A stretch of 64,000 nucleotides of DNA. It comes from Litoreibacter halocynthiae. Lineage in GTDB: Bacteria; Pseudomonadota; Alphaproteobacteria; Rhodobacterales; Rhodobacteraceae. Made by a program: the position numbers and the translations under genes. Below are positions 5,390 through 31,048 of this stretch, piece after piece; position 1 is the first letter of the stretch; every line of letters starts with the position of its first letter. The stretch lies in the NCBI RefSeq assembly GCF_004365635.1, contig NZ_SOBH01000001.1:1302001-1366000 (forward strand). The letters run 5' to 3'. The notes under the pieces were generated by a model. It saw only the letters and a list, made by a program, of their open reading frames with translations, had not been told where the DNA came from and did no database searches.

Positions 5390-6343
5390 ATGTTGCAGAG
5401 CCCCACATTACATCCTTTGCAGATCACGGCCCCCGCACGACCAAATGCTGGGATGCTCTATATGATCGCAGCCATGCTATTGCTGCCAGTAGGCGACACG
5501 TTCGCCAAACTGATCAGCGAGACGTTGAACCCTGTCGGGGTGACGATGTGCCGTGTTCTGGCACAAGCATTGCTTCTGGTCCCGATCGCATTTTTCCTGC
5601 GTCATCGCCTCAGAGGCGCAATGTTCTCGCCCGTCTTAGCGCTGTCCGGTATTTTGCTTATTATTTCACTTACCAGCCTCATCAGCGCATTCGCTGTCAT
5701 GCCAATTGCCACAGCAATCGCAATCTTCTTTGTAGAGCCGTTGATTCTGACGCTTCTTGCGGGATTTTTGTTAGGCGAAACAGCGGGCCCACGGCGTTTG
5801 ATCGCGGTTGGTATCGGCTTGGTCGGTGCGCTGATCGTGATCCGCCCCGGCTTCTCGACATATGGCTGGGTGACAATTTTGCCGCTGATTTCGGCCGTGG
5901 CCTATGCGCTGAACATGATCCTTCTCAAAAAAGCAACCGTCACACGGTCTGCACTGACAGTTCAATGTGGCACCACGGTTTATGCGGCGGTTGGTCTTGT
6001 TTTGCTTTCTATGGCTCTAAGCTTCACACCAATGACCGGCTTCGTTCCCTCCACGGCGGACACATCTACGTGGCTTCTTGTCTTATGTGCCGGCGCGGTT
6101 GCCGCGATCAGCTTTGTGATGATCGCCGAAGCGTACCGCACCGCCGATGCCACGGCCCTAGCGCCATTCCAGTATCTTGAGATCATGACCGCCACGGCTT
6201 TGGGCTTTCTGGTCTTTGGCGATTTCCCGGATGCTTTGACAGGCGTAGGCATTGCGATCATTCTGGGTTCAGGCATCTATATTTTCCACCGCGAGGGGCA
6301 GTCGGACACATCCGCGCCGCGCCGCAAAAGAGCAGGACGGTAA
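5390..6343 (+). CDS. DMT/EamA-family transporter
   Basis: The 317-residue inner-membrane protein has about ten hydrophobic helices in two EamA repeats. The first covers about residues 22-155 (GDTFAKLISETLNPVGVTMC, IATAIAIFFVEPLILTLLAG and IRPG at its end). The second covers about 165-300 (ATALAPFQYLEIMTATALGF, FGDFPDALTGVGIAIILGSG). Members export or import small metabolites such as amino acids and nucleosides; the substrate cannot be read from the sequence. GAGGA precedes the ATG. The gene is followed after 73 bases by an efflux pair on the same strand. Confidence 0.88.
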   Translation: MLQSPTLHPLQITAPARPNAGMLYMIAAMLLLPVGDTFAKLISETLNPVGVTMCRVLAQALLLVPIAFFLRHRLRGAMFSPVLALSGILLIISLTSLISAFAVMPIATAIAIFFVEPLILTLLAGFLLGETAGPRRLIAVGIGLVGALIVIRPGFSTYGWVTILPLISAVAYALNMILLKKATVTRSALTVQCGTTVYAAVGLVLLSMALSFTPMTGFVPSTADTSTWLLVLCAGAVAAISFVMIAEAYRTADATALAPFQYLEIMTATALGFLVFGDFPDALTGVGIAIILGSGIYIFHREGQSDTSAPRRKRAGR

Positions 6344-6416
6344 GGTTTGATCGCACTTCCACGACAAGCCAGCGGCTGTAATTGAACTCAATGAAATATC
6401 GAGAAGAGGAACTGTG

Positions 6417-16029: not shown

Positions 16030-16033
16030 GCCG

Positions 16034-16492
16034 TCACTCAAACTTGCGATGCGCCCATTCAGAGGCAACCCCCCCGAAGAACCCACCGATGACCAGAACC
16101 GCCAACACAAACGGGTTCAGCAATAACAGTCCGTAATCGAGCATCAATGCGAAAACGTCCACCAAGGCCTCCATCGGGCCGTCATATTGCAAGCGGCGGG
16201 ATTTCTTGATCATCAAAGCTACCGCGAAGATGAAGGTGACAGAAACCGTAGATACAACAACGACATAGAGGCCATTATTCATGCTGGCGCCGTAGTTTTT
16301 ACCCACCAGTTTTCCCATGATACGCCAGCCGACAATCAGCGGAATACCGACGCAGATCGGCAGCAGCCATTTTAGCGGTTGCCCCTCTGGAAGCGTTGGT
16401 CTGATCAGTTCTGCCACTAAGTAACCCGTGATCGCAAAAATGACTCCGGCAACAAGTTTGGCGGCTGTGGGCATCTTGGCAGTGGTGGTCAT
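16034..16492 (-). CDS. trgA: TrgA family membrane protein
   Basis: The 152-residue protein starts MTTTAKMPTAAKLVAGVIFA and has about four membrane helices, with the family-typical MPTAAKLV entry and a hydrophobic C-terminal pair. TrgA is the membrane partner of TrgB in Rhodobacter tellurite resistance. The ATG at 16492 lies 8 bases after the methyltransferase stop; upstream in-frame starts fall inside that gene. It is most likely co-transcribed with the methyltransferase and trgB. Confidence 0.85.
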   Translation of the reverse strand: MTTTAKMPTAAKLVAGVIFAITGYLVAELIRPTLPEGQPLKWLLPICVGIPLIVGWRIMGKLVGKNYGASMNNGLYVVVVSTVSVTFIFAVALMIKKSRRLQYDGPMEALVDVFALMLDYGLLLLNPFVLAVLVIGGFFGGVASEWAHRKFE

Positions 16493-16500
16493 TGTAGAAA

Positions 16501-17736
16501 CTACTCGGTTTTTTTCATGGTGATCTGCGTCACATCGCAGTTTCCACTCCAAAACGTAGCGGCGCAAGAGGTCAGATAGAAATTCCACATGTTTCTAAAG
16601 CGTTGGTCAAACCCCAATTCTTCCACCTTGTCCCATCGGGCGTTGAACGTCTCATGCCACAGGCGCAGGGTTTTCGAGTAACTTTCCCCGAACTCGATGG
16701 AGCCCACGACCTCCAGCCCTGCCCGCTCCACCTGCGCGCGCAGCACGGACGGGCACGGCAACATGCCGCCCGGAAAGATGTATTTCTGGATGAAGTCCAC
16801 CTGACGGTTATAGACCTCCCAACGGCGGTCCTCGACGGTGATGATCTGCAAGGTCGCGCATTTGCCGGGCTTGAGGCGGTCGCGGATGGTGTCGAAATAG
16901 ACCGGCCAGTATTTCTCGCCTACCGCCTCAAACATCTCGATGCTGGCGATGCCGTCATACTGCCCGCGCTCGTCGCGGTAGTCCTGCATTTTGATCTCGA
17001 CCAGATCGCGCAGCCCCGCCTTAGCAACCCGTTCCACAGCATAGTCATGCTGTTCCTGACTGATCGTCAGCCCCGTGACCCTGATCCCCTCGCGCGCCGC
17101 GTGTTCCGCGAACCCGCCCCAGCCGCAGCCGATCTCCAGCACATGGTCGCCCGCCTTTGCGCCCATCTGGTCCAGCATGGAGGCGTATTTGGCCTGCTGC
17201 GCCTCCTCTAGGCTCTCGTCACCTTTGAACAGGGCCGAGCTGTAGGTCATCGACGGGTCCAGCCACAGCGCGTAGAACTCGTTGCCCAGATCGTAGTGGT
17301 AGCTGATATTCTTGCGTGCCTGCTCCTTGGAGTTCCGCTGCATCCAGAACCGCATCTTCTCATAGGCCCGCACCAGTCCGAGGCCGGGGAAGCCGTCATA
17401 GACCTCCTCGTTATCGGCATGCATCAAATCCATGAAAGCTTGCAGGTCGGGCGTGGTCCACCAGCCGTCCAGATAGGCGTCGCAAAAACCCAGATCGCCT
17501 TCACGGATCAAGCGGGCGAACAGGTCGTTGTTGTGAATGTCGATCTCGGCTGAAATGCCCGCCTCACGCCCTTCAGCGCGGAACACGCGGCCATCGGGCA
17601 GCTTCATATCCAATCGCCCCGCGCGCATCTTCTGAGCGGTGGCAAAAGCCTGTGGAAAATAGCGCGGAAGCGCGTGCTGTCCTTGCGTGCTCGTCAACAC
17701 ATCCTGTGTCAGCACATCGCCAGTGAGAACATTCAT
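16501..17736 (-). CDS. Cyclopropane-fatty-acyl-phospholipid synthase-like methyltransferase
   Basis: The 411-residue protein has an N-terminal region and a SAM-dependent methyltransferase domain. It shows the CFA signature NISYHYDLGNEFYALWLDPS, the SAM loop VLEIGCGWGGFAEHAA, GLTISQEQHDYA, SIEMFEAVGEKYWPVYF, and QKYIFPGGMLP near the C-terminal part. It probably modifies unsaturated fatty acyl chains of membrane lipids. In Rhodobacter a similar gene sits beside the photolyase gene and belongs to the singlet-oxygen response. The N-terminus has a short repeat (VLTGDVLTQDVLT) that looks non-conserved. GGGAGG precedes the ATG. Confidence 0.88.
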   Translation of the reverse strand: MNVLTGDVLTQDVLTSTQGQHALPRYFPQAFATAQKMRAGRLDMKLPDGRVFRAEGREAGISAEIDIHNNDLFARLIREGDLGFCDAYLDGWWTTPDLQAFMDLMHADNEEVYDGFPGLGLVRAYEKMRFWMQRNSKEQARKNISYHYDLGNEFYALWLDPSMTYSSALFKGDESLEEAQQAKYASMLDQMGAKAGDHVLEIGCGWGGFAEHAAREGIRVTGLTISQEQHDYAVERVAKAGLRDLVEIKMQDYRDERGQYDGIASIEMFEAVGEKYWPVYFDTIRDRLKPGKCATLQIITVEDRRWEVYNRQVDFIQKYIFPGGMLPCPSVLRAQVERAGLEVVGSIEFGESYSKTLRLWHETFNARWDKVEELGFDQRFRNMWNFYLTSCAATFWSGNCDVTQITMKKTE

Positions 17737-17840
17737 GCCCTGCCTCCCTAACTAAGCATATTCATGAATTTTGACAGATAGCGCGAAATTTCTCAAGTAA
17801 AGCAAAGCGGTCGTGTTTTTCCGTGAATGCCGTGCGCTGC

Positions 17841-19259
17841 TTATCCCTTGCGTTGCTGATAGGCGTCCAGCGCACGCTGCCGCCCCTCATCCAACGCAAC
17901 CACGGGCTTGGGATAGTCGTCAGTGATCGCCATATTCCACGACTTCGGAATGGCTTTGAAGTAATCCTCCGCCTCCTCACCGTGATCCTTGAACAACTCC
18001 CCCAGATAGCGCGCACGGTAGCTGCGGTCGTTGTCAAACTTCTCGGCCTGCGTCGCGGGATTGAACACGCGAAAATAGGGCGTCGCGTCCGGGCCGGAGC
18101 CCGCAGACCACTGCCATCCCATTGCATTTGAAGCCGGATCCCAATCGATCAGGCAATCGTCAAACCACGCCTGCCCGACCTTCCAATGGGTCATCAGGTG
18201 CTTGGTCAGATAAGAGGCCACGATCATCCGCCCGCGATTGTGCATGTAGCCGGTGACATACATCTCCCGCATCGCAGCATCGACCAACTGGATCCCCGTG
18301 CGGCCCTGTTTCCACGCTTTGATCTCGGCGGCGCGTTCATCGTCCTTCCACGGGAAAGCATCCCATTCCTCGCGCCAGTTTTTGTCCATTATGCGCGGAG
18401 TGTGATAGGCCAGATGGTAGGCAAATTCCCGCCAGACCAGCTCTTTCAGAAAGGTCTCTGCGCCCGACTTTCCCTCATGCACCGCCCGCCAACCAGCGTG
18501 CCAGCAGCGGCGGGGGGAAATCTCGCCATAGGTCAGGTTCTCCGACAGCATCGAGGTGCCGCGCACCGCCATCTGGTCGCGGGCGTCTTTGTATCCGTCA
18601 ATGCGATCGCGGATGAAGGTGGCCAGTCGGGTGGATGCGGCGTCTTCACCGACGACCACATGCTTGGCGACGATATCCGCGCCGCGCCACATCGCAGCCC
18701 CCATCTGCCAGTCGTCAATCTTTTCTGACGCGGGCCATGAATTTGGCGCGCATAGTTCGCTCACCGCCGAAATGTCCGCTGCAAGGCCCGTTCCGCGTAC
18801 CGATTTCCACATCGGGCTGAAGACCCGATAAAATCCACCGGTTTTGGTTTCCACCGTCCACGGCTCGAACAGGACATGGCCTTTGAAGCTTTGCGCGTCG
18901 ATGCCGTCGTCTTTCAACGCTTCCTTCACGCCTGTGTCTCGCGCGATGGCGTCAGGGTCATAGGCCCGCGACCACCATACGGCCCCTGCCCCCGTCTCCT
19001 TCACCAAGTCACGCAGCACGTCCAGCGCCTTGCCGCGTCGCAGGACCAGCTTGGAGCCGATGCCCTCCAGCGTCTTTGCAAAATGCTCCACCCCCAGCCC
19101 CAGCCGCCATTTGGGCGCGGCGCCGTGGGTCTCGACCACTTCGTCGTGGATGAACACAGGGATCACGGGGCGACCCGTGGCGGCGGCGGCACTCAGGCCT
19201 TCATGGTCGCCCAACCGCAGATCGCGGCGGAACCAGAACAGAATTGGTGTATCACTCAT
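17841..19259 (-). CDS. Deoxyribodipyrimidine photolyase/cryptochrome family protein
   Basis: The 472-residue flavoprotein begins MSDTPILFWFRRDLRLGDHE, the classic FRRDLR start of photolyases. It has the C-terminal FAD-binding core: KELVWREFAYHLAYH, GRTGIQLVDAAMREMYVTGY, MHNRGRMIVASYLTKHL, and DPASNAMGWQWSAGSGPDA. These fit a class I CPD photolyase that repairs UV dimers with blue light. Its start overlaps the stop of the aminotransferase gene by 4 bases. The neighbouring CFA-type gene and trgAB match a photo-oxidative-stress block described in Rhodobacter. Confidence 0.93.
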   Translation of the reverse strand: MSDTPILFWFRRDLRLGDHEGLSAAAATGRPVIPVFIHDEVVETHGAAPKWRLGLGVEHFAKTLEGIGSKLVLRRGKALDVLRDLVKETGAGAVWWSRAYDPDAIARDTGVKEALKDDGIDAQSFKGHVLFEPWTVETKTGGFYRVFSPMWKSVRGTGLAADISAVSELCAPNSWPASEKIDDWQMGAAMWRGADIVAKHVVVGEDAASTRLATFIRDRIDGYKDARDQMAVRGTSMLSENLTYGEISPRRCWHAGWRAVHEGKSGAETFLKELVWREFAYHLAYHTPRIMDKNWREEWDAFPWKDDERAAEIKAWKQGRTGIQLVDAAMREMYVTGYMHNRGRMIVASYLTKHLMTHWKVGQAWFDDCLIDWDPASNAMGWQWSAGSGPDATPYFRVFNPATQAEKFDNDRSYRARYLGELFKDHGEEAEDYFKAIPKSWNMAITDDYPKPVVALDEGRQRALDAYQQRKG

Positions 19260-20479
19260 AAAACCTGATCTAGTGCGTCTATCAGCCGGTCAACCTCTGG
19301 CTTCGAGGTATAGTGCACAAAAGACAACCGCAGCACGCCGCGGTCCATGTCGACGCCCATCGCCTCCAACGCGCGGCCCGCGTAGAAATCGCCACCACCC
19401 GCCATGATACCGTGCGGTGCCAGTTGCGCCGCTGCTTCCTCTGCGTTCGCTTGCAAGGCCAGTGCAACGGTCGGTGCGCGTGAGGCCGCCTTGTCCGGCC
19501 CGATCAACCGCACGGAGTTCTTGGCCGACGCGTAGTCCAGCAGCGGCTGCAACATCTCATGCTCATGCGCCTGCATCAGGTCATGCACGGCAGCGCCTTT
19601 GGCCGCAGGGGCAGCATCACCGCCGATATGGTGGTCATACAAAGCGTCGATATAGTCCGCCATGCCCGCGCTGGCCGCAACTTGCGCGTGGTCCGGACCC
19701 GCTGGGGTGAACCGCTTATACAGGCTGGCTTCGTTGAAATGGTGGCCCTGGTTCGGCAGTTTCATCCCCAGATCGCGGCGGATCACCATGATACCCTGAT
19801 GAGGCCCGTAGGTTTTGTAGGCCGAGAACAGGTAGATATCCGCCCCCAGTTTACCCACATCCGGCAACCCGTGCGGCGCGTAGGAGACGCCGTCGACGCA
19901 GGCCACCGCCCCCGCCTGATGCACTTGGGCGCAGATGGCGGCGACGTCGTTGATCTCTCCCACCACGTTGGAGCAATGCGAGAACGCCACCAACCGCACC
20001 TTGTTGTCCAAGAGGTTTGCCAGATCAGCAGGGTCCAGATGGCCAGTGTCAGGGTTGATCCTCCACTCGCGCACCTCGAACCCGCGCTCGGCCAAACGCC
20101 GCCACGGGCCGGAATTGGCCTCATGGTCTTGATTGGTCACGATGATCGCGTCGCCCGGTTTCATCCACTGGGCAAAGGCCTGCGCCAGAACGTAAGTGTT
20201 CTGCGTGGTCGACGGCCCGAAGGACAGCTCGTCCGTGTCGACGCCCAGAATAGCTGATAGCCGCGTCCGCGCCTCGTCCATCTCCGCGCCGCCAAGGGTC
20301 GACGCCTCGTAAGGCGCATAGGGTTGAACCTTGCGCTCTGTGTAGAAGCGGTAGAGCCGGTCGATCACTGGGCGACAGGTATAGGACCCGCCGGCATTTT
20401 CAAAGAAGGCCTGCCCCTTCAAAGGGGCCGCGTCGAAAGCCGGGAATTGCGCCCGCACGAATTCAATATCAAGTTTCAT
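19256..20479 (-). CDS. Class V PLP-dependent aminotransferase (cysteine desulfurase-like)
   Basis: The 407-residue protein has the class V fold. FFENAGGSYTCRPV is at the N-terminus, TTQNTYVLAQAFAQ is the PLP-phosphate region, and QDHEANSGPW carries the ring-stacking His. CVDGVSYAPHG has the PLP-pyridine Asp, and K222 in LFSAYKTYGPHQG is the Schiff-base lysine. It belongs to the CsdA/kynureninase-like branch; no obvious catalytic Cys loop of IscS type is seen, so the reaction is open. The gene heads the minus-strand train and overlaps the photolyase gene. Confidence 0.85.
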   Translation of the reverse strand: MKLDIEFVRAQFPAFDAAPLKGQAFFENAGGSYTCRPVIDRLYRFYTERKVQPYAPYEASTLGGAEMDEARTRLSAILGVDTDELSFGPSTTQNTYVLAQAFAQWMKPGDAIIVTNQDHEANSGPWRRLAERGFEVREWRINPDTGHLDPADLANLLDNKVRLVAFSHCSNVVGEINDVAAICAQVHQAGAVACVDGVSYAPHGLPDVGKLGADIYLFSAYKTYGPHQGIMVIRRDLGMKLPNQGHHFNEASLYKRFTPAGPDHAQVAASAGMADYIDALYDHHIGGDAAPAAKGAAVHDLMQAHEHEMLQPLLDYASAKNSVRLIGPDKAASRAPTVALALQANAEEAAAQLAPHGIMAGGGDFYAGRALEAMGVDMDRGVLRLSFVHYTSKPEVDRLIDALDQVL

Positions 20480-20684: not shown

Positions 20685-22508
20685 ATGAGTATCAAACCAC
20701 CCTTCACCGACCTCGACATCTCAACGGCAGATGGCGGGTTTTACCACGGGAACAGCGTTCCAATCGCCTTGATTTCCAAGGGGATCATGGTCGCGCTGGT
20801 GCTTTGGGCATTGGTCTTTCCGGGCTACGCCAACAGCACGCTGAGCAGCTGGAACAGCGCGATCCTCGCCAGCTTCAACTCCTTCTATGTCGTCATCACG
20901 GGGCTGTTCTTCTTCTTCCTCGCGATCATCGCAATCATTCCATCCACTGGTCGGCGCATCATGGGCGCACCGGGCGAGAAGCCGGAGTTCTCGAATTTCT
21001 CATGGTTTTCCATGATGTTCGGGGCCGGTCTGGGCGTGGGCCTGATGGTCTTCGCAACCGCAGAGCCGCTGGGCCTTTGGGGGTCTAACCCTGTTGTTCT
21101 GGCCGGTGACGTGCCCGCCAATTCGGAAGAAGCGTTGCAATCGGCGTATCGCTACACCTTCCTGCATTACGGCTTCCACGCTTGGGCGATCTATGTCGTG
21201 ACCGGCCTCAGCTTGGCCTACTACGCCTACACGCGCGACATGCCACTGACCATCCGCGCGGCGCTGACGCCTTTGTTCGGCAGCGCGATGAATGGCTTCT
21301 TGGGCCATGTCGTCGACGTGCTGGGTGTTGTTGCCACCATCTTGGGTGTGTCCGTGACCATCGGGTTCGGTGTCAGCCAGTTCATTGACGGGGTCTACGC
21401 GATCACCGGCATGGAGTGGATGATGAACATGGAAGGCGACGCCCCTGCACCGGGCAAAGTTGGCCTTGTGGCTGGTCTTGTGGTGATCATGGCAATGTCG
21501 ATCCTGTCGGCTGTGTCAGGCGTTGGCCGCGGGGTTAAGTACCTCTCGAACCTCAATCTGGTTCTGTCATTGGTCCTGTTGCTGGTCTTCATCATCTTCG
21601 GGTCGTTTACCTTCGCCCTGTCGACCTATGGCTCGGCGTTCATCGACTACATCCTGAACTTCGTGCAGCTGTCCTTCGGGGCATATGGTCCGCAATCCGC
21701 AGACGCCTTTGCAGCCGCATTGCCGGAAGCCGCCAAACCGCTGGCGGGTGATCTGATGGCAGGTGCGACTAATGCCTGGGGTTCCTTCGACGGCTTCAAA
21801 TCCGGTCTTGAAGGCGCCGCAGCAGAGCTTCCGGACGACGTGCTGGCCGCAGCATACGAGGCAGGCAACCAAGGCCGTCAGTTCGGTTGGCAGTCCGGTT
21901 GGTCCACCTTCTATTGGGCATGGTGGATCGCGTTCTCGCCGTTCGTGGGTCTGTTCCTTGCACGTATCTCCAAGGGCCGTTCTGTGCGCGAATTCATCAT
22001 CGGTTGCGTAATCGCGCCGTCGCTGGTGTGCTTTGCATGGATGACCATCCTTGGCGGCACTGCAATTGATCTGGAACTGACCGGCGGTGCAGAGGGCACC
22101 ATCATCGGCGCGTCCAACACCGCCAAGCTGTTCGTGACACTGGGCGAGATGATCTCCGGCGGGTTCCTGTCGGCCATCACCATCATGTGTGTGGTACTGA
22201 TCATGACCTTCCTCGTGACCTCCGCAGACTCCGGCATTCTGGTGATGAACACCATCATGTCCGGCGGAGAGCAGGAAACCGGCGTCAAGCACCGCATCGT
22301 TTGGGGCGTTATCCTGACCTTGGTGATCGGCACGTTGCTGCTTGCCGCAGGGGACAACAACCCGATGGATGCACTGCGCAACGCGATGATCATCGGGGCG
22401 CTTCCGTTCACGATGGTTATGGGGCTGATGATGGTCTCGCTGACCAAGGCGCTATATCGCGACGGCAAACGCGACAAGTTCGCAGCGGAGGCGCAGGCTG
22501 CCGAATAG
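20685..22508 (+). CDS. BCCT-family betaine/choline/carnitine-type transporter
   Basis: The 607-residue carrier has about twelve membrane helices and BCCT hallmarks: the glycine-rich substrate helix SMMFGAGLGVGLMVFATAEP, and the tryptophan-rich WSTFYWAWWIAFSPFVGLFL followed by ARISKGRSVREFI. Members take up trimethylammonium or dimethylsulfonium compounds (glycine betaine, choline, carnitine, DMSP) by Na+ or H+ symport. The loop between about 330 and 400 is longer than usual. Because dmdA lies 3.3 kb away, DMSP is a plausible substrate, but this is inferred from context only. The gene shares one terminator with the convergent second BCCT gene. Confidence 0.92.
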   Translation: MSIKPPFTDLDISTADGGFYHGNSVPIALISKGIMVALVLWALVFPGYANSTLSSWNSAILASFNSFYVVITGLFFFFLAIIAIIPSTGRRIMGAPGEKPEFSNFSWFSMMFGAGLGVGLMVFATAEPLGLWGSNPVVLAGDVPANSEEALQSAYRYTFLHYGFHAWAIYVVTGLSLAYYAYTRDMPLTIRAALTPLFGSAMNGFLGHVVDVLGVVATILGVSVTIGFGVSQFIDGVYAITGMEWMMNMEGDAPAPGKVGLVAGLVVIMAMSILSAVSGVGRGVKYLSNLNLVLSLVLLLVFIIFGSFTFALSTYGSAFIDYILNFVQLSFGAYGPQSADAFAAALPEAAKPLAGDLMAGATNAWGSFDGFKSGLEGAAAELPDDVLAAAYEAGNQGRQFGWQSGWSTFYWAWWIAFSPFVGLFLARISKGRSVREFIIGCVIAPSLVCFAWMTILGGTAIDLELTGGAEGTIIGASNTAKLFVTLGEMISGGFLSAITIMCVVLIMTFLVTSADSGILVMNTIMSGGEQETGVKHRIVWGVILTLVIGTLLLAAGDNNPMDALRNAMIIGALPFTMVMGLMMVSLTKALYRDGKRDKFAAEAQAAE

Positions 22509-22582: not shown

Positions 22583-24220
22583 TTAGCGTTCTTCGGTTTG
22601 AAGCCCTTTGAAGATCGCCCAGCACATCATCAGCAAGACCACCGTGAACGGCAGTCCCGTCGAGATCACCATGGATTGCAGCGACTGCAACCCGCCGACC
22701 GACAACAGCAGCACAATCGCCACCGCCCCTTCGAAGATGCACCAGAACACGCGCTGCGGCACCGGAGCGTCGATCTTGCCGCCCGCCGTGATCGTGTCGA
22801 TCACGAGGCTGCCGGAATCCGACGAGGTGACGAAGAACACGATCACCAGAATGATCCCGATCAGCGAGGTGATCTGCGTCAGCGGCAACTCGTCCAGCAT
22901 CTTGAACAGCTTCAGCTCAAGCGGTGCATCCTGCGCAGCGGTGTAGCCGTCGACTACGACCTGCTGGATGGCAGTGCCGCCGAAGACGCTCATCCAAAGC
23001 ACGCAGACGAGGCTCGGGATCAGCAAGACGCAGATCACAAACTCGCGCACGGTGCGGCCACGGCTGACGCGGGCGATGAACATGCCGACGAAAGGTGACC
23101 AGCTGATCCACCACGCCCAGTAGAACGAGGTCCAGCCCTGAACGAAGTTGGTGTCCTCACGGCCGATGGGATTGGCCAAACCGGGCAGATACTGGACATA
23201 GGCCAGAAGGCTGTCGGCAAAGCCTGTCAGGATGGCGACAGTCGGCCCGACGATCAAAACGAACAGGAGCAGCAGGAAGGCCAGCCCCATGTTGATCTCC
23301 GACAGGATCTTCACCCCGCCGTCCAGACCGCGCACAACCGAGATCAGCGCGATTGCGGTAATCACGGAGATCAGGATCACCTGCGTGGTGCCACCGATCG
23401 GCACGCCGAACAGCTCGTTCAGGCCCGCGTTGGCCTGCGTCGCGCCGAAGCCCAGCGAGGTCGCCAGACCGAACAGCGTGGCAAACACCGCCAGCGTGTC
23501 GATGATGTGGCCGGTCCAGCCCCAGACGCGATCCCCGAAGATCGGGTAGAACGCCGAGCGGATCGTCAAAGGCAGGCCCTTGTTATAGGTGAACAACGCA
23601 AGGCTCAGCGCCACGACCGCGTAGATCGCCCATGGGTGCAGGCCCCAGTGGAAAATCGTCGCCGCCATGCCAAGGCGGATGGCCTCGTCCTGATCGCCGC
23701 CAGCGCCGCCAAGCGGAGCCCAGTCGGTACGCGCGCCGCCCTCGGAGACCACGCCGCCAAACGAGCTGGAGAAGTGGCTCATCGGCTCCGACACGCCGTA
23801 GAACATCAGCCCGATGCCCATACCGGCCGCAAACAGCATCGCGAACCAGCCGACATAGCTGTAGTCCGGCACCGCGTCTTTGCCACCCAAGCGCACTTTG
23901 CCCATAGGCAACACGATCAGCATGAAACAGAACAATACGAAGATGTTGGCGGCGCTGATGAAGAACCAGTCAAAGCCCTTCGTTACTGCCCCGAAGAGCC
24001 ATGAGAACAAGGCCCCCGACTGCTCTGGCAAGGCCAGCGTGTAGAACACGAACGCCACAATGGCGACGCCGGAAATGCCGAATACCGGGTTGTGGATGTC
24101 GAACCCGAACGGGCCGACATTGCCTTCCACATTGTCCTGGCCAATCTCGTAATCTGTGTCGATCAGGTCCGATTCACCATCTGGCGGGCGGATTCCTTCA
24201 CTTTCATTTTCATCGACCAT
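22583..24220 (-). CDS. BCCT-family transporter (second copy)
   Basis: The 545-residue carrier has about twelve membrane helices with the BCCT motifs MLFAAGMGIGLMFYGVSEPM and WTSFYWAWWISWSPFVGMFI followed by ARVSRGRTVREF. It carries the G-M-G-I-G-L form, unlike the G-A-G-L-G-V-G-L form of the convergent paralogue, so the two probably differ in substrate or ion coupling. The N-terminal 35 residues are acidic and cytosolic, and there is no long C-terminal osmosensor. AGGAGAG precedes the ATG. It lies 31 bases behind the usp gene and likely ends the dmdA-acuI-usp train. Confidence 0.92.
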   Translation of the reverse strand: MVDENESEGIRPPDGESDLIDTDYEIGQDNVEGNVGPFGFDIHNPVFGISGVAIVAFVFYTLALPEQSGALFSWLFGAVTKGFDWFFISAANIFVLFCFMLIVLPMGKVRLGGKDAVPDYSYVGWFAMLFAAGMGIGLMFYGVSEPMSHFSSSFGGVVSEGGARTDWAPLGGAGGDQDEAIRLGMAATIFHWGLHPWAIYAVVALSLALFTYNKGLPLTIRSAFYPIFGDRVWGWTGHIIDTLAVFATLFGLATSLGFGATQANAGLNELFGVPIGGTTQVILISVITAIALISVVRGLDGGVKILSEINMGLAFLLLLFVLIVGPTVAILTGFADSLLAYVQYLPGLANPIGREDTNFVQGWTSFYWAWWISWSPFVGMFIARVSRGRTVREFVICVLLIPSLVCVLWMSVFGGTAIQQVVVDGYTAAQDAPLELKLFKMLDELPLTQITSLIGIILVIVFFVTSSDSGSLVIDTITAGGKIDAPVPQRVFWCIFEGAVAIVLLLSVGGLQSLQSMVISTGLPFTVVLLMMCWAIFKGLQTEER

Positions 24221-24251
24221 TGTCTGATCTCTCCTGAATTATTTTTTATTA

Positions 24252-24665
24252 TCAACGTACCAAGAAAACGGACGCTTTCGCGTGTTGGGCCAGATGCCCC
24301 CCATGCGATGCCCAAATATGCTCGCTAAACCCCGGCGTGTGCGTGGCCATCACGATCAGATCACAGCCCGTTTCATCCACTGCGGTCAGCAGCGTCTTGT
24401 CCAGATCAACCGCCGGATCGTGGCTGGTCATCGCATGCGACGACGCTGTGACCCCATGCGATTTACCCTGCTCTTGCGCGAAGGTTTCAAGCTTCTGCGC
24501 GTATTCCTTGGGATTGTGCGCCACCTTGCCCGGTGCGCTGGACGTTACGCCTACGAAGCAAAGCTCTGCCTTGTGGGTCTTGGCAAGTTCCGCTGCACAT
24601 AGCAGGGATTTGCCCATCTTACCGCTATGGGCCAAATCGATCGGTACCATAATTTTGTGAAACAT
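24252..24665 (-). CDS. Single-domain universal stress protein (UspA family)
   Basis: The 137-residue protein begins MFHKIMVPIDLAHSGKMGKS and contains GCDLIVMATHTPGFSEHIWA, then SHGGHLAQHAKASVFLVR. These are the first strand and the ATP-loop region of the Usp fold, but the canonical G-2x-G-9x-G-(S/T) is altered. It is cytosolic. A BCCT carrier gene follows 31 bases later; Usp genes often accompany transporters and may tune them. acuI lies 159 bases upstream on the same strand. Confidence 0.85.
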   Translation of the reverse strand: MFHKIMVPIDLAHSGKMGKSLLCAAELAKTHKAELCFVGVTSSAPGKVAHNPKEYAQKLETFAQEQGKSHGVTASSHAMTSHDPAVDLDKTLLTAVDETGCDLIVMATHTPGFSEHIWASHGGHLAQHAKASVFLVR

Positions 24666-24824
24666 CGGTCCCTCCAGTTTTGGAAACTGCCAGCAGAGCT
24701 ACGCTCAAGCCTTTGAATTTCCATACGCTTTGCAAGACGGAAGGCCGATTGCCCGACCGCCTCATCGCAAAACCGTAACAGGAGGGCGGGCCGCTACGCA
24801 ACCAGTTCGCCCGACAGGATTTTA

Positions 24825-25808
24825 TCAGGCGTTCACATCGACGACGACGCGGCCCTTGACCTGCCCCTTGAGGATTTCCTTGCCGAGCTTGGGCAAATCC
24901 GCCAGCGTCGCGGGCTGCACCATGGCGTCGAGCTTGTCCATCGGCAGGTCTTTCGCGATCCGCTCCCAAGCCCGCAGGCGGTTGCCATAGGGCTGCATCA
25001 CGCTGTCGATGCCCAGCAGGTTCACGCCGCGCAACAGGAACGGGATCACGGTGGCGGGCAAGGCCGCACCACCGGCCAGACCCACGGCGGAGACCGACGC
25101 GCCGTATTTCATCTGCCCCAGCAGCCGCGCCAGCATCTCGCCGCCCACTGCGTCGACACACCCACCCCACATTTCCGCCTCCAAGGGGCGTTTGGTTGTC
25201 TCGTTGAGGTCCTCGCGGGGTACGATCTGGGTCGCGCCGAGGCTTTTCAGGTAATCTGCTGTCTCGGGCCGCCCCGTGACCGCCGCGACCTCGTGGCCCA
25301 GATTGGCGAGGATCGCCGTCGCTACCGAGCCCACGCCGCCAGCGGCCCCAGTGACCAGCACGGGGCCGTCCTTGATGCCGTGATCCTCAAGCGCCATCAC
25401 CGCCAGCATCGCGGTAAAGCCTGCGGTGCCCACAGCCATAGCCTGCCGTGTGTCCAAGCCATCAGGCAGAGGCACCAGCCAATCCGCCTTGACGCGGGCC
25501 TTTTGCGAATAGCCGCCCCAATGCGCTTCGCCCACGCGCCAGCCAGTCAGAACCACCTTGTCGCCCGGCTTGTAGCGGTCGTCGTCGGACGCCTCCACGG
25601 TGCCCGCGAAGTCGATGCCCGGAATATGTGGATAGTTTCGCACCAACCCGCCACCCGGCCCTATGCACAGCCCGTCCTTGTAGTTCACGGTGGAGTATTC
25701 CACCGCGACCGTGACCTCGCCCTCCGGCAGGCTATCCAAGGAAATGTTTTGTACAGAGGCACTTGTCTTGCCCTCTTCATCCTTTTCGACGATCAGTGCG
25801 TTAAACAT
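24825..25808 (-). CDS. acuI: Acryloyl-CoA reductase (NADPH), MDR family
   Basis: The 327-residue zinc-independent medium-chain reductase starts MFNALIVEKDEEGKTSASVQ. It has EYSTVNYKDGLCI and the HIPGIDFAGTVEASDD signature, the nucleotide loop TGAAGGVGSVATAILANLG and a VTGRPETADYLKSLGA NADP site. This fits AcuI/YhdH, which reduces toxic acryloyl-CoA to propionyl-CoA during DMSP catabolism. It sits 12 bases downstream of dmdA, as in other roseobacters where dmdA and acuI are co-transcribed. That context makes the assignment stronger than sequence alone. Confidence 0.93.
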   Translation of the reverse strand: MFNALIVEKDEEGKTSASVQNISLDSLPEGEVTVAVEYSTVNYKDGLCIGPGGGLVRNYPHIPGIDFAGTVEASDDDRYKPGDKVVLTGWRVGEAHWGGYSQKARVKADWLVPLPDGLDTRQAMAVGTAGFTAMLAVMALEDHGIKDGPVLVTGAAGGVGSVATAILANLGHEVAAVTGRPETADYLKSLGATQIVPREDLNETTKRPLEAEMWGGCVDAVGGEMLARLLGQMKYGASVSAVGLAGGAALPATVIPFLLRGVNLLGIDSVMQPYGNRLRAWERIAKDLPMDKLDAMVQPATLADLPKLGKEILKGQVKGRVVVDVNA

Positions 25809-25820
25809 AGGCTCTCTCCT

Positions 25821-26921
25821 CTAAATCCAGAATTCTTCGTGAACCGTCGCCATGCGCGGCCCGTCTTGCGTCTCGACCTGCACCTGCGTGCCGTCGTCCC
25901 AATGGGTCATCCGCACCATGCCGATGGCGACATTGGTGCCGAAATCGGGGCTCTTCGCCGCCGAGGTCACCTGCCCGATCACCTTGTCCTTCGCGGTGAC
26001 CTTCCACAGCCGGTCGCAGGGCGGCAGGTTTCCCTCAATGCTCAGCGCGCGGATTTGTTTCACCGGGCCCTCCTTTGCCACGCGCAACAACGCATCGCGC
26101 CCGACACAGCCGATCGCGGTCTGCGTAGAGCAGAACCGCCCCAGCCCGCATTCATGCGGGGTGTTGTCGCGCGTCATGTCGTTGCCGTAAGACAGCAAGC
26201 CGCCCTCGACCCGCTCGATCAAATTTGGGCAGCCTGCATAGACATCCAAGTCACGCCCCGCCTCCATCAGCGCGTTCCACAGCGGCATGCCTTTCTCGGT
26301 GCCTTCGACATAAATCTCGAAGCCGCCCTGCTTGGAGTAGCCAGAGCGCGCCACCAGCATCATGTGGCCCTGAAATTCGAAATACCCGTAGCGGAAGAAC
26401 CGCAGGTCCTTAACTCCGTCGCCAAAAACACGCGCGGCTAGCTCATCGGCTTTCGGCCCTTGGATCGCCAATGGCGAGACATCGGGTTCATCTACGATTA
26501 CATCAAGATACAGAGCGTGTGCCAAGCCTTTGACCCAAAGCAACAAATCACTATCCGCAATCGACAACCAATAACGATCATCAGACAGCATCAAGGCTAC
26601 CGGATCGTTGAGCATCCCGCCCGTGCCATCAACCAAAGGCACGTAGTAGCACATCCCCGGCAACATCCCCCGCAAATCACGCGGGGTCAGCATTTGCATC
26701 AAACGTCCCGCGTCAGGGCCGCGCAGTTCCACCTGACGCTCCACAGCGACGTCCCAGACCTGCACGGCGGATTTCAGATGGTGGTAATCCTCCTCGACCG
26801 AGCGGAACACCGTCGGCAACAGCATATGGTTATAGACGGTGTATCCCTTGACACCCGCCGCCTCGACCCCATCAGAGAATGGCGTTCGGCGCACGCGGCG
26901 CGAAGGTGCGATCGTGGCCAT
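25821..26921 (-). CDS. dmdA: Dimethylsulfoniopropionate demethylase
   Basis: The 366-residue, cytosolic, tetrahydrofolate-dependent enzyme of the GcvT fold converts DMSP to methylmercaptopropionate plus 5-methyl-THF. It starts MATIAPSRRVRRTPFSDGVE, close to the remembered DmdA N-terminus of Ruegeria pomeroyi (RRVRRTPFS, EAAGVKGYTVYNHMLLPTVF). It keeps SPLAIQGPKADELAARVFGD, ARSGYSKQGGFEIYVEG, GCPNLIERVEGGLLSYGNDM and TPHECGLGRF. ATG 26921 was chosen because GGGGAGGG lies 8 bases upstream and the length matches the family. It starts 2 bases after a small Cys-protein gene and is followed by acuI. Confidence 0.95.
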   Translation of the reverse strand: MATIAPSRRVRRTPFSDGVEAAGVKGYTVYNHMLLPTVFRSVEEDYHHLKSAVQVWDVAVERQVELRGPDAGRLMQMLTPRDLRGMLPGMCYYVPLVDGTGGMLNDPVALMLSDDRYWLSIADSDLLLWVKGLAHALYLDVIVDEPDVSPLAIQGPKADELAARVFGDGVKDLRFFRYGYFEFQGHMMLVARSGYSKQGGFEIYVEGTEKGMPLWNALMEAGRDLDVYAGCPNLIERVEGGLLSYGNDMTRDNTPHECGLGRFCSTQTAIGCVGRDALLRVAKEGPVKQIRALSIEGNLPPCDRLWKVTAKDKVIGQVTSAAKSPDFGTNVAIGMVRMTHWDDGTQVQVETQDGPRMATVHEEFWI

Positions 26922-26923
26922 GT

Positions 26924-27178
26924 TCAAAGCCCTCCCCTTAAATTTCGTTTGCAATCAACCGGTCCACGGCTGGTGCGGCTATAGGCCGACACGCCACAAA
27001 TCTCGCAACGGAATTCTTGCAGCGCGCCCTTGCCGTCGCCGGTGGGCTGCCATTTGCACGGCTTACGCCGGAACAGCTTGTCGAGCCGGAAGGCAACTTC
27101 GTTCCCTGCCCGCCTACGTCCCCAGCTCCACCAGACAAAGCCCGCGACGGCCAGCAGGATCGCCAGCACCACGGGCAT
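26924..27178 (-). CDS. Small membrane-anchored Cys-rich protein in the dmdA operon
   Basis: The 84-residue product was not recognised as a named family. It has one N-terminal membrane helix (MPVVLAILLAVAGFVWWSWG), then a basic linker and a cysteine set in the order CKW-(~16)-C-x-x-C-(~13)-C, including FRCEICGVSAYSRTSRGP. This looks like a small zinc-ribbon domain facing the cytosol. Its start overlaps the DinB stop by one base, and its stop is 2 bases before dmdA, so translation coupling with dmdA is likely. The dmdA ribosome site lies inside its 3' end. Confidence 0.75.
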   Translation of the reverse strand: MPVVLAILLAVAGFVWWSWGRRRAGNEVAFRLDKLFRRKPCKWQPTGDGKGALQEFRCEICGVSAYSRTSRGPVDCKRNLRGGL

Positions 27179-27684
27179 CAGGTGTCATCCGGCATGAGCA
27201 CAAGGTCGGTATCATCAGGTAGCTGCCCCGCCGCCGTCAGCATCGCGTGAATTTGCCCGCGATGATGGGTCTGGTGGTTGAAAAAATGTACCGCGCACAA
27301 TGCCATGGGCTTGCTGAACTCACAATCTGACATGACCGAGTAGTAGGTCAGCGGCCCGACCAAATCGATCTGGTTCAACCCCTTCGCCCACCGCTCGATC
27401 CGCGCATCCGTGCGCAGGCGATCACCCAGAAACAGCTGCAAATCCTCGTGCAGGTTTACACTATCCGCACCACCGCATTTTGGGCCCAACCCGCCATCGA
27501 AGCGTGACATCCATAGCTGGTCGCCCCACAACAGATGGTTGGCGGTCGCAAAAATCGACCCGAAGAAGGCCTTGCGGTCCTTGCGCAACTCCGCGGACTT
27601 CATGGACTTGAAAATCTCCATCTGCCCGCGGTTCTGCCACGCATTGTAGCGGGCCATTTCACGGCAATACTCAATCGTGATCAT
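27178..27684 (-). CDS. DinB-family protein
   Basis: The 168-residue protein is likely a four-helix bundle: MITIEYCREMARYNAWQNRG, then a metal-ligand His in FATANHLLWGDQLWM, and FFNHQTHHRGQIHAML with the other two ligands of the DinB His triad. Some members act as thiol S-transferases on bacillithiol, mycothiol or glutathione, while many are uncharacterised. The ATG overlaps the stop of DUF1326 by 4 bases, so the longer upstream frame is rejected. Its place just before dmdA suggests a role around thiol or methyl-sulfur compounds, which is inference. Confidence 0.82.
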   Translation of the reverse strand: MITIEYCREMARYNAWQNRGQMEIFKSMKSAELRKDRKAFFGSIFATANHLLWGDQLWMSRFDGGLGPKCGGADSVNLHEDLQLFLGDRLRTDARIERWAKGLNQIDLVGPLTYYSVMSDCEFSKPMALCAVHFFNHQTHHRGQIHAMLTAAGQLPDDTDLVLMPDDT

Positions 27685-28322
27685 TTTGGTGCTGGTCCTC
27701 CCCAATCAATCTGGCAAATCTCGGCAGAGCGTCCGTCGAAATCCCAAACCCGACCGTAAGCGCGGACCTTTCCGCGCTTGGCCGTGGCCACGGTGATGTC
27801 TTTGCCCATCCAGTATTCGGTGTTGGTGATCACCATATCCGCGCCGTCCTTGCCCGCGACCGGAACAACCTCGCCCTGGATCTTCTTGCCGACCATCAGG
27901 CGGCGCACATTGCCTTCGGTGGTGAAAGACACAGGCGCGCGCTCGGCCCCCAAAAACTCCCCGACCAACATGCTGAACAAGCCCGTCGTGCCTTTCGCGG
28001 CCCCTGACAGGATCGCTTCCAGCCCTGCATAGGCCGCGTCGCTGGCTTGGTCGTCAATATACGCCGCCGCCTTCCAATTACCGCGTCCCATATTGCCGGG
28101 AATGTCCATCAACATGCCCACGGCCATGCCGGACAGGTCTTCGTCGCCGTAATGCCCCTCGTCGATGCGGATGCCCAACCACGCCTGACAGTAGCCCTCT
28201 GTCGGGGGGTGCTTGCCCAGCGACACCACGCAGGGGCAAAACACGGTGCAGTTGCAGTTGAGAATAAGCTCGCCCTTGATGTTCCACGGAACGGTGCCAA
28301 GTTCTTGCGCGTCTAAAGCCAT
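27681..28322 (-). CDS. DUF1326 protein
   Basis: The 213-residue protein starts MALDAQELGTVPWNIKGELI. It has the DUF1326 cysteine motif NCNCTVFCPCVVSLGKHPPT near residue 23, a YCQAWLGIRIDEGHYGDEDL segment and a C-terminal beta-rich region. The tight N-C-N-C/C-P-C arrangement suggests metal binding. DUF1326 genes commonly sit next to DUF2182 membrane proteins, as here (15 bases downstream). The role is unknown. It is the second gene of the train leading to dmdA. Confidence 0.85.
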   Translation of the reverse strand: MALDAQELGTVPWNIKGELILNCNCTVFCPCVVSLGKHPPTEGYCQAWLGIRIDEGHYGDEDLSGMAVGMLMDIPGNMGRGNWKAAAYIDDQASDAAYAGLEAILSGAAKGTTGLFSMLVGEFLGAERAPVSFTTEGNVRRLMVGKKIQGEVVPVAGKDGADMVITNTEYWMGKDITVATAKRGKVRAYGRVWDFDGRSAEICQIDWGGPAPK

Positions 28323-28337
28323 GGTTCTTTCCTTTTC

Positions 28338-29099
28338 TTAAATTGCGGTCACGAGGGTCCATGCGCCTGCAATCAGCAGAAGCCCCCCCAGAGGTTTCGT
28401 TATGTATCGACCCAGATCAGGCAGTTTTTCCACCACCATGATCACGGTCGCCAATCCCATGAAAGCCACGCTCATCACGCCGCCCACAAAGGCCAGAAGC
28501 ATCAAGGCCCAGCAGCAGCCGAGGCAAACCAGCCCCAGCCGCAATCCGTTGCGCCACGGGCCTTCGTCGAAATGCTGCATGAAGAAGGTCATCGGCTGGC
28601 GGCACTTGCTCAGGCACGCCTCTTTCAAAGTCGAGAACTGGTAAAGACCCGCCAATATCAGCAACGCACCCGACAGACCTGCCGAGAGGCTGCCACCGAA
28701 CGCACCGATCAGGCCTGCTTGGAACAAGCCAATTTGCAAGCCCGCGGCAATGATGGAAAAGCCAAACCAAACAATAAGATAGCCCGATACAAGTGAGCCA
28801 AAATTCGCGCGATAGCTGACATGGGAGAGGTCATCATAGGTGGCTAAGGCGGGTAAAACCGTCGGCGCCATCATTGCCGCCGACATCAGCGACCACATCA
28901 GTACCATACGAAGATATCCGGCGGCGTCAGGCGTGATGGTACACAGGCTCACCCAAAAATCGCGGCCATAGGTCTGCTCAAGCAGGCGCAGCTCCGGCGG
29001 CACTGACATCGCATAAAGTGCCGTCCAGGAGGCCAGAATAAGCCCGAACAGCGCAAGCCAATGCGCCCCCGACATTGCTCTGATCCGATCCGACCACAT
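28338..29099 (-). CDS. DUF2182 integral membrane protein
   Basis: The 253-residue protein has about six membrane helices. It shows the DUF2182 features MVLMWSLMSAAMMAPTVLPA (a Met/Ala-rich helix), LYQFSTLKEACLSKCRQPMT (conserved K-x-x-C-L-x-x-C), and RLGLVCLGCCWALMLLAFVG with a CxGCCW motif. COG annotation calls the family predicted metal-binding membrane proteins. It is the first gene of the minus-strand train to dmdA/acuI. Its start is 82 bases from the divergent GntR-type gene, with a strong inverted repeat between them. Confidence 0.85.
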   Translation of the reverse strand: MWSDRIRAMSGAHWLALFGLILASWTALYAMSVPPELRLLEQTYGRDFWVSLCTITPDAAGYLRMVLMWSLMSAAMMAPTVLPALATYDDLSHVSYRANFGSLVSGYLIVWFGFSIIAAGLQIGLFQAGLIGAFGGSLSAGLSGALLILAGLYQFSTLKEACLSKCRQPMTFFMQHFDEGPWRNGLRLGLVCLGCCWALMLLAFVGGVMSVAFMGLATVIMVVEKLPDLGRYITKPLGGLLLIAGAWTLVTAI

Positions 29100-29133
29100 C
29101 TGCGTTGCGACTCCCGTATGACCTGCTAGTTTA

Positions 29134-29163
29134 AATTGTCAGACTTTTATATGTCTGACAATT
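29134..29163. promoter_or_regulatory. Inverted-repeat operator between DUF2182 and the FadR-type regulator
   Basis: AATTGTCAGAC (29134-29144) and GTCTGACAATT (29153-29163) are perfect 11-bp arms around the 8-base spacer TTTTATAT. Each arm also contains a small FadR/GntR-type site (GTC-A-GAC and GTC-T-GAC, the GT-N-N-N-AC pattern), so two dimers could bind 15 bases apart. The position in the 82-base divergent gap fits autoregulation plus control of the dmdA train. Confidence 0.75.
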
Positions 29164-29181: not shown

Positions 29182-29910
29182 ATGAAAAATTCTTCGACAC
29201 CACAAGGCGACCTATCCGCCCAGATCGCAGGGTCCATCCGCGACGCCATCATCGCCGGTGACCTGATCGTAGACGCCCGCCTGCCGTCAGAGGCGGAACT
29301 GGCGGAGCAATTCAAGGTCTCCCGCCCCACCGTGCGCGAGGCGCTGAAACGGCTGGCGGCGCAAGCCCTGATCCGCACGCAGCGCGGGGCAACGGGCGGT
29401 GCCTTCGTGAACCACCTGAAATACCCGGACGCTTACGCCCAGCAGATCACCACCTCGACGCTTCTGTTGTCGATGAACGAGGTGTCGATCGCCACCGCCT
29501 GCGAGGCCCGTTTCGCGCTAGAGCGCGCCTGCACCCGCCTGTCCGCAGAACGGCGCAGCGCCGACCATCTGGCCACCATGCGGGCCGAGATGTTCCGCCA
29601 GTCGCAACCCGGTCTCAGCGACGAGGCGTTCTGCGCCTCGGACGTTGCCTTCCACCGCGCGTTGGTCGACGGGGCGCAAAACCCCGTGATGTCGTACCAG
29701 TTGGCAGGGGCCGTCGAGGCGATGCAGCCGTTGATGAATATGATCACCTTCACCGCGCGGTCCCGCGAGAAGATCGTCGCCCTGCACGGGCAAATCGCCG
29801 ATGCGCTAGAGGCCCAGAACGCCACCGATGCAGACGCCGCCCTGACCGAACTGGAGGCTTATACCATCTCGTTGGCCAAGGACGTACTCGACGCCCGCGC
29901 GCGGCGTTGA
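29182..29910 (+). CDS. GntR-family (FadR subgroup) transcriptional regulator
   Basis: The 242-residue protein has an N-terminal winged helix (GSIRDAIIAGDLIVDARLPS, SEAELAEQFKVSRPTVREAL, KRLAAQALIRTQRGATGGAF) and a C-terminal FCD-type helical ligand domain. The domain contains FALERACTRLSAERRS, DVAFHRALVDGAQNPVM and a late VALHGQIADAL; the D/H/H residues are candidate metal ligands. FadR-type regulators respond to acids and acyl-CoA-like effectors. It is divergent from the gene train that includes dmdA and acuI, with a perfect palindrome between. A DMSP-pathway intermediate is therefore a reasonable effector guess, not shown by sequence. Confidence 0.92.
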   Translation: MKNSSTPQGDLSAQIAGSIRDAIIAGDLIVDARLPSEAELAEQFKVSRPTVREALKRLAAQALIRTQRGATGGAFVNHLKYPDAYAQQITTSTLLLSMNEVSIATACEARFALERACTRLSAERRSADHLATMRAEMFRQSQPGLSDEAFCASDVAFHRALVDGAQNPVMSYQLAGAVEAMQPLMNMITFTARSREKIVALHGQIADALEAQNATDADAALTELEAYTISLAKDVLDARARR

Positions 29911-29998: not shown

Positions 29999-31048
29999 AT
30001 GAACCGTATGACCAAACTGCTGGGCACCGCTGCCCTTGCTGTGGCCACCACCTCCGCTTTCGCGGCTGACCCTGACCTTCTGGTCTTCGACTGGTCGGGT
30101 TTTGAAGAAGACGGGTTCTTCGTCAAATACGCTGAAAAACACGGCTCCGGCCCGACATATGCGTTCTTCGGCGAAGAAGAAGAAGCATTCCAGAAGCTGC
30201 GTTCCGGTTTCAAGGCCGACGTGGCGCATCCCTGCTCCCAATCCGTCGAAAAATGGGCTCAGGCAGATCTGATCGAGCCGTGGGACATCTCCAAAATCCC
30301 GAGCTACGCAACCTTGGCGGAAACCTACCGCACTGACCCGACCTTCGTGCGCGACGGCGAGGTCTACTTCATCCCGACCGATCTGGGGATGACCGGCATC
30401 GCCTACAACGCCGACGAAATCAAACCCGAGCAGGTCGCCTCGCTGGAAATCTTCCTTGATCCTGAAATGTCAGGCCGCACCTCCCTGCCCGACAATGTCG
30501 AGGATTCCTATGCGCTGGCCTATCTGGCCACTGGCACCTCCGACTGGACCAAAGCCACCGAAGAGGACTTCAAGAAAGCCTCCGACTGGCTGCGCAAAGC
30601 CCACGCCAACGCGCGGGCCTATTGGGCGGACGGCGCAGAGCTGGCACAGCTGATGGCCACCGGCGAAGTTCTGATCGCTTGGTCGTGGAACGAAACCCCT
30701 GTGCAGATGGTCGGCGACGGCTACAACATCGGGTTCGAGCGTGAAGCCAAAGAAGGCTCCTCCGCGTGGTTCTGTGGCTATGTGAACCTCAAAGACGGCC
30801 CCGGCTCCGAAGAAAAGGCGCATGAGTTCGTTGAAAGCTGGTTGAGCCAGGAGACCGCCGATTACATCGTGAATGAGTGGGGCTACGGTCACTCCAACAC
30901 CACCGCGATGGGCACCTTCGACGCGGAAACCCTGACCGAGGTGGGTCTGAACCAGATCACCGCACCGCAGTTGGAGCAGCTGCCGATGGATATCTCCTTG
31001 CGTGAGATGATGATCAAGGAATTCGAACGCATCAAAGCAGGCTTCTAA
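29999..31048 (+). CDS. Extracellular solute-binding protein (PotD/PotF-like), orphan
   Basis: The 349-residue protein has a clear signal peptide (MNRMTKLLGTAALAVATTSA then FAADP). It has a type II periplasmic binding fold with LLVFDWSGFEEDGFFVKYAE, KSGFKADVAHPCSQ-like motifs and PTDLGMTGIAYNADEI. These resemble spermidine/putrescine-type binding proteins (family 1 PotD). No ATPase or permease gene lies next to it, so its partners must be elsewhere, or it serves signalling. It follows the FadR-type gene by 88 bases and is followed by a good terminator at 31056. ATG 29999 has GGGAGA upstream and begins a perfect signal peptide. Confidence 0.88.
   Translation: MNRMTKLLGTAALAVATTSAFAADPDLLVFDWSGFEEDGFFVKYAEKHGSGPTYAFFGEEEEAFQKLRSGFKADVAHPCSQSVEKWAQADLIEPWDISKIPSYATLAETYRTDPTFVRDGEVYFIPTDLGMTGIAYNADEIKPEQVASLEIFLDPEMSGRTSLPDNVEDSYALAYLATGTSDWTKATEEDFKKASDWLRKAHANARAYWADGAELAQLMATGEVLIAWSWNETPVQMVGDGYNIGFEREAKEGSSAWFCGYVNLKDGPGSEEKAHEFVESWLSQETADYIVNEWGYGHSNTTAMGTFDAETLTEVGLNQITAPQLEQLPMDISLREMMIKEFERIKAGF

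Follow-up and report, generated by a model that had tools for sequence, protein, structure and literature searches.

The gene cluster described here comes from Litoreibacter halocynthiae, a member of the Rhodobacteraceae, and combines two genes for the catabolism of dimethylsulfoniopropionate (DMSP), a sulfur compound made by algae, and of acrylate, a toxic by-product of it, with a pair of putative metal-handling genes, a DinB-type gene and a divergently transcribed regulator gene. It is located in a 64,000-nt stretch (hereafter the window) of contig NZ_SOBH01000001.1 of assembly GCF_004365635.1, and window coordinates are used throughout unless another locus is named. Read along the minus strand, it begins with a gene for a multi-helix membrane protein of the DUF2182 family, a putative copper chaperone (28338-29099; COG5486, PpoB2-type; PF09948, 198.7 bits with a cut-off of 28.7), followed by a DUF1326 gene (27681-28322; PF07040, 172.6 bits, cut-off 25), a gene for a DinB/YfiT-superfamily protein with a three-histidine metal site (27178-27684; PF05163, 58.6 bits, cut-off 23), a gene for an 84-aa protein (26924-27178), the DMSP demethylase gene dmdA (25821-26921; NF009133, 661.9 bits, curated equivalog cut-off 410), and acuI, which codes for a member of the acryloyl-CoA reductase family (24825-25808; TIGR02823, 451.3 bits, cut-off 297.25). 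The label “AcuI family” is used because the protein passes this subfamily model and does not reach the equivalog model NF051456 (423.1 vs 440 bits). Downstream on the same strand are two genes that proved to be optional, usp for a universal stress protein (24252-24665; PF00582, 55.4 bits, cut-off 24) and a gene for a BCCT-family carrier (22583-24220; PF02028, 605.9 bits, cut-off 27).

The regulator gene runs in the opposite direction on the plus strand (29182-29910), and its product belongs to the FCD/GntR (FadR-type) regulators, with both the GntR helix-turn-helix domain (PF00392, 65.3 bits, cut-off 27) and the FCD domain (PF07729, 62 bits, cut-off 24.3) scoring above their cut-offs. Between it and the DUF2182 gene lies the predicted operator, a perfect 11-bp inverted repeat, AATTGTCAGAC-8-GTCTGACAATT (29134-29163), containing two GTCWGAC cores 15 bp apart. 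The genes, their families and their minus-strand order match exactly those given in an earlier sequence-only reading of the window, as do all seven intergenic gaps recomputed from the ends of the open reading frames (15, -4, -1, 2, 12, 159 and 31 bp from DUF2182 to the BCCT gene). The span given in that reading stops at 29163, where the inverted repeat also ends. By reading, the 84-aa protein has one hydrophobic stretch at its N-terminus and four cysteines, and it yielded no Pfam match at an E-value of 0.1 and no NCBIfam match at 0.01. The DUF1326 protein is 100% identical over 213 residues to the copies in L. meonggei and L. ascidiaceicola.

Recurrence of the module among roseobacters

Two sets of loci were compared with the window. 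The family sample consisted of 150 Rhodobacteraceae genomes, one from each genus, subject to a completeness limit of 90 (sample loci L032-L096 and L177-L216), while the named set (L097-L176) contained the best 80 of 483 DUF1326 relatives in a species collection, and gives no estimate of frequency because it was picked by similarity to the window. The dmdA loci and 40 further DUF1326 loci were examined, with genes called by a codon-based script, in a second round for the low-GC loci L057, L059, L062-L066, L191 and L200. Genomes are described as lacking dmdA if they yield no match above the 410-bit cut-off, and the module is defined by rule as a DUF2182-DUF1326 pair with dmdA or acuI downstream. 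Since the sample and named loci share organisms (e.g. L083/L109, L085/L114 and L095/L146), pooled counts for junctions, operators and the tree include near-copies.

Above the curated cut-off, dmdA is present in 62 of the 150 family genomes, and DUF1326 in 77 (91 copies in total); 52 genomes contain both, and ten contain dmdA without DUF1326. A recurring link with dmdA, which the sequence-only reading had set beforehand as its own test, is indeed present: in 47 of the 62 dmdA genomes, the locus that holds dmdA also has the DUF2182-DUF1326 pair upstream of it (45 by the rule, plus G025 and G054), an association that is not due to chance, given 91 DUF1326 copies in 77 of 150 genomes. The two genes lie in separate loci in five of the 52 genomes with both (G123, G140, G001, G083 and G115). 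By rule, the module occurs in 58 genomes, of which 47 have dmdA anywhere, 45 have it in the locus itself, and 11 lack it. For the counts of SBP56-family and cupin genes given below, G025, G054, G083, G006 and G085 were added by hand, yielding a list of 63 module genomes; G123 and G140, in which the regulator and the pair are found with dmdA on a different stretch, remain outside it.

Seventy-nine of the 80 named loci contain the module, accompanied by a divergent regulator in 74 cases, acuI in 72, dmdA in 64 and DinB in 41. The usp and BCCT genes, said earlier to follow acuI, do so in the window, but as constant members they did not hold up, being present only in a minority of these 79 loci (12 and 13, respectively). 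Similarly, the 84-aa protein, described earlier as a zinc-ribbon-like anchor, is a rare extra found at the module locus in 2 of the 150 family genomes, and was rejected as a conserved part. With any copy counted, DUF1326 is present in all 17 genomes of the window's genus and in all 51 genomes from the genus of R. lacuscaerulensis. The spacing within the module is tight, with a median of 15 bp at the DUF2182-DUF1326 junction (143 pairs) and of -1 bp at the DUF1326-DinB junction (73 pairs), in both cases for sample and named loci pooled, some of them from the same genome.

Our literature search, which covered subscription literature in part, returned no description of a link between the DUF2182-DUF1326 pair and dmdA or acuI, and none of the terms DUF2182, DUF1326, COG5588, PF09948, PF07040 and SPO1909-SPO1912, while COG5486 does occur; nor did it return a paper that brings together dmdA, acrylate and electrophoretic mobility-shift work.

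Regulator, operator and loci without dmdA

Of the 120 intergenic regions next to the regulator gene, 113 contain the operator core GTC[AT]GAC, with 188 sites in total vs 2.6 expected, an excess of about 70-fold. Exactly two such sites spaced by 15 bp are found in 48 of the 120 loci, and alignment of the double sites gives ATTTGTCaGACATTTAAAAGTCTGACATTT for 51 loci. A search of 26 genomes for the exact double site returned a single copy in the window's genome, a single copy in each of seven out of 15 other members of the genus, and no further copies; the reversed control was absent from all of them (0/26). Seven of the eight genomes with the exact double site have it within 1.6 kb of DUF1326, and the eighth has it on a different contig. 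The regulator therefore appears to be local; the single genomic occurrence of the double site supports the earlier suggestion of a dedicated FadR-type regulator, and, judging from these sequence patterns, the FCD/GntR protein looks dedicated to the operon.

As to the signal, either acrylate or DMSP raises the expression of dmdA and acuI about 10-14 fold in Ruegeria pomeroyi (PMC3338564), from which we infer by analogy that acrylate may act as the inducer here. In the same study, dmdA was directly upstream of acuI in 24 of 26, i.e. all but two, of the dmdA-bearing roseobacters (Todd et al. 2012, PMC3338564), and both this order and the acrylate and DMSP response liken that operon to ours; it differs in that the available part of the paper mentions neither a regulator nor a gene ahead of dmdA, and places the promoter near dmdA, the DUF2182, DUF1326, DinB and FCD genes being additions here. 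An AcuR-type acuI operon likewise keeps acuI together with a local regulator gene, which is however the TetR-type AcuR, accompanied by a DMSP lyase, as opposed to an FCD/GntR gene with metal- and thiol-type genes.

In 14 of the best 80 named loci, the regulator, the pair and acuI, and often DinB, are kept, and dmdA is missing. No dmdA above the cut-off was found anywhere in these 14 genomes (0/14, with the positive control L103 detected and assembly completeness unstated); eight of them hold a dmdA relative at 361-381 bits, below the 410-bit cut-off. All 14 loci retain the operator core, and three contain dmdA debris between DUF1326 or DinB and acuI (L122, 9130-9392; L127, 2867-3096; L134, 8543-8770). 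A search for dmdA remnants in 29 loci returned these three and L205, as well as two weak matches outside the module (L165 and L201, E 0.03-0.04). The L205 match (5743-6832) is a dmdA-like gene broken into several frames behind DUF1326, with 40-52% identity, and it renders doubtful the assignment of the corresponding genome, G013, to those without dmdA.

In a tree of 162 DUF1326 proteins (FastTree, with 64 of 159 inner branches weak), a single change separates class A, the module class, from the reversed class B, whereas the states “dmdA and acuI” and “acuI only” within class A require 21 changes. The regulator, dmdA and acuI are also found without the pair, in three of the ten dmdA genomes lacking DUF1326 (L045 and L079, and L071 with DinB), and in L036, L050 and L086 dmdA is located, again without the pair, in clusters with ligase, acyl-CoA dehydrogenase or enoyl-CoA hydratase genes. 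On this evidence, dmdA appears to be the part that comes and goes, with the accessory genes travelling with acuI and the regulator. Since the pair is kept with these two where dmdA is absent or reduced to debris, it is not tied to demethylation, and the part in DMSP demethylation as such that the sequence-only reading had given to the accessory genes was not sustained.

Outside the family, three loci from other families of the class (L230, L232 and L233) contain a class-A-like DUF1326 or its neighbours; in L230 the gene after the DUF2182-DUF1326 pair codes for an AMP-binding ligase, which shares its Pfam family with the ligase inside some dmdA loci. Where the pair is distant or belongs to class B, its neighbours vary, as judged by eye from length and first residues, with only the L230 ligase checked against Pfam.

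Probable copper and thiol chemistry, and the alternatives

For DUF2182, an alternative start at 29075 agrees better with relatives, and, in numbering from this start, residues M64, M68, M69, C158, C184, C187 and C188 are invariant among 54 sequences; its AlphaFold model is helical, with a predicted local distance difference test score (pLDDT) of 91.7. The DUF2182 gene of L046 (7252-8175, genome G147), which is split across two frames, through a sequencing error or because the gene is broken, was excluded from the second DUF2182 alignment. The DUF1326 protein has no signal peptide by reading and a predicted model with pLDDT 93.6, and 48 sequences share the invariant cysteines C23, C25, C29, C31 and C45 (motif C-x-C-x3-C-P-C, plus C45), in addition to one Trp, one Asp and Gly/Pro positions. 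Pfam annotates PF09948 as “Copper chaperone”, the family being named after PpoB2, a COG5486 membrane protein encoded by ppoB1-ppoB2 of Marinomonas mediterranea, which is reported to pass copper to a tyrosinase (PMC2855505). The partner there is the tyrosinase, whereas here it is DUF1326, and the locus contains no known cuproenzyme. From family membership and conserved residues, DUF2182 and the five-cysteine DUF1326 probably handle Cu(I).

In the DinB protein, H50, H137 and H141 are invariant among 32 sequences. The DinB-superfamily bacillithiol transferases BstA-H conserve H67, H160 and H164, and thus share with it a three-His metal site and the His-x3-His spacing (H137/H141 in the window; PMC5815605); in sequence, however, it is a weak match to the solved DinB proteins, with a best E of 8.7e-05. 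By this analogy, DinB probably moves a small thiol. Among the roles in thiol, metal or methyl handling suggested earlier for the accessory genes, thiol or metal handling is more likely, and nothing was found for methyl handling.

The copper handled by the pair could be destined for a single DMSP-pathway cuproenzyme, either methanethiol oxidase (MtoX, SBP56 family) or a member of a second SBP56 clade, and this is the least probable of the alternatives that we considered. MtoX does require copper (PMC5739008), and an SBP56-cluster gene (450-466 aa; one member confirmed by Pfam as PF05694) is located beside the module in seven loci (L074, L102-L104, L144, L154 and L156) and, in L044, next to a dmdA unaccompanied by the pair. 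Moreover, of the two groups into which the family SBP56 matches fall, at about 580 and 690 bits, the former is found in 24 of the 63 module genomes vs 9 of the 87 others, a comparison based on the hand-curated list and ignoring kinship. However, the MtoX clade, cut at no less than 650 bits, is scarcely enriched (12/63 vs 7/87) and is missing from all 13 module genomes without dmdA (the SBP56 of G013, in pieces with stops like its dmdA, was assigned to neither clade), the window's genome has no PF05694 match, and MtoX has SCO1 and MauG neighbours of its own (PMC5739008). The absence of MtoX from the window's genome and the dmdA-less module genomes contradicts it as the sole copper client, and is the reason why we prefer a general role of the pair, which would protect Cu(I) and thiols when electrophiles stress the cell. 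The mtoX-SCO1-mauG cluster resembles the present locus in tying a copper chaperone to an organosulfur enzyme (PMC5739008), albeit with another chaperone family in another locus.

The SBP56 genes of the eight loci above have no signal peptide by eye, and are followed by a gene for a membrane-type protein of about 218 aa without a Pfam match. The cupin DMSP lyase (PF16867) was also considered as the true partner and rejected, its excess in module genomes being weak (33/63 vs 29/87); it scores above the cut-off in six of the 13 dmdA-less module genomes, and no match to it was found in the window's genome, in a search limited to this lyase and not extended to DddP, DddD or DddY.

The remaining alternatives dispense with a copper role. 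A gene order conserved over a long distance behind acuI in numerous genera (clusters c1, c3, c4, c6, c8 and c9) and the dispensability of the DUF2182-DUF1326 pair would suit bystanders kept together by inherited roseobacter gene order with no common task; we hold this to be unlikely, since the pair, regulator and operator stay while the neighbours on either flank change, as in Ruegeria, Roseovarius and Shimia, since genes of the module overlap at their start and stop codons, and since the operator cores are far above background. Somewhat less probable still, DUF1326 may be an enzyme with an acetoacetate-decarboxylase-like fold acting on an acryloyl- or methylthio-acyl intermediate, with DUF2182 as its partner or exporter and copper incidental. 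Acetoacetate decarboxylase is defined by a catalytic Schiff-base lysine, but no lysine is invariant in the 48 DUF1326 sequences, the invariant residues of which are those listed above. The view of the sequence-only reading, in which the accessory genes work directly for DMSP demethylation, agrees with the presence of dmdA in most module loci (45 of the 61 sample loci placed by the gene caller, as well as 64 of the 79 named ones), but has become quite improbable in light of the module loci in which dmdA is missing or survives as debris, and of the dmdA genes, including those of 10 of the 62 dmdA genomes, that do without DUF1326 or the pair.

In the surroundings of the operon, two BCCT carriers are arranged tail to tail with 74 bp between them (20685-22508, plus strand, and 22583-24220, minus strand), as is also the case in L097 and L098. 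The regulator is followed by a solute-binding protein gene (29999-31048, plus strand), which adjoins the regulator in about 12 loci (e.g. L034, L069, L080, L093, L157 and L160). Further away, the minus-strand block at 14893-20479 contains what we take to be aminotransferase-, photolyase-, cyclopropane-fatty-acid-synthase-, small-membrane- and NUDIX-type genes, and its clusters c1, c3, c4, c6 and c8 are found again behind acuI at numerous roseobacter loci.

Proposed role of the operon

We favour, with somewhat less than even confidence, the interpretation of the locus as a roseobacter operon responsive to acrylate or acryloyl-CoA that would provide Cu(I) and thiol protection, and would not be devoted to demethylation only. 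The FCD/GntR protein would bind the double GTCWGAC operator, the sequence of which is observed, to control both its own gene and the operon, and would be released by acrylate or a derived acyl-CoA. By their known chemistry, DmdA diverts DMSP from acrylate-forming cleavage, and AcuI reduces acryloyl-CoA, a thiol-reactive electrophile. Cytosolic DUF1326 could bind Cu(I) through its five invariant cysteines and exchange it with DUF2182 in the membrane, and the pair may in this way keep Cu(I) safe or delivered when its usual thiol buffer is upset by electrophiles together with methanethiol or sulfide. DinB, with the His triad of a thiol transferase, may put a small thiol on or off a reactive intermediate.

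Several observations weigh against this interpretation. DinB is absent from about half of the module loci, the co-location of the genes sits inside a longer conserved gene order, and DUF1326 could be an enzyme. The association tests ignore kinship, although the sample comprises one genome per genus. In addition, the R. pomeroyi promoter is within a 350-bp fragment ending in dmdA (PMC3338564), which misfits an operator ahead of DUF2182 if that species has the module.

In its most extended form, which is possible but rather doubtful, the proposal would link the homeostasis of Cu(I) and thiols with DMSP and acrylate catabolism in roseobacters: an FCD regulator that senses acrylate would induce acuI, and often dmdA, along with a previously undescribed DUF1326/DUF2182 copper relay and a DinB thiol transferase, as acryloyl-CoA and methanethiol disturb the copper-buffering thiol pool. 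The escape of dimethyl sulfide from the sea is influenced by the balance between DMSP demethylation and cleavage, and the locus offers a testable candidate regulator, with a conserved operator, for the dmdA-acuI genes, which acrylate is reported to induce. Its recurrence suggests that metal and thiol handling accompanies a DMSP or acrylate lifestyle in most of the dmdA-bearing genera sampled, and DUF1326 would thereby gain a physiological setting.

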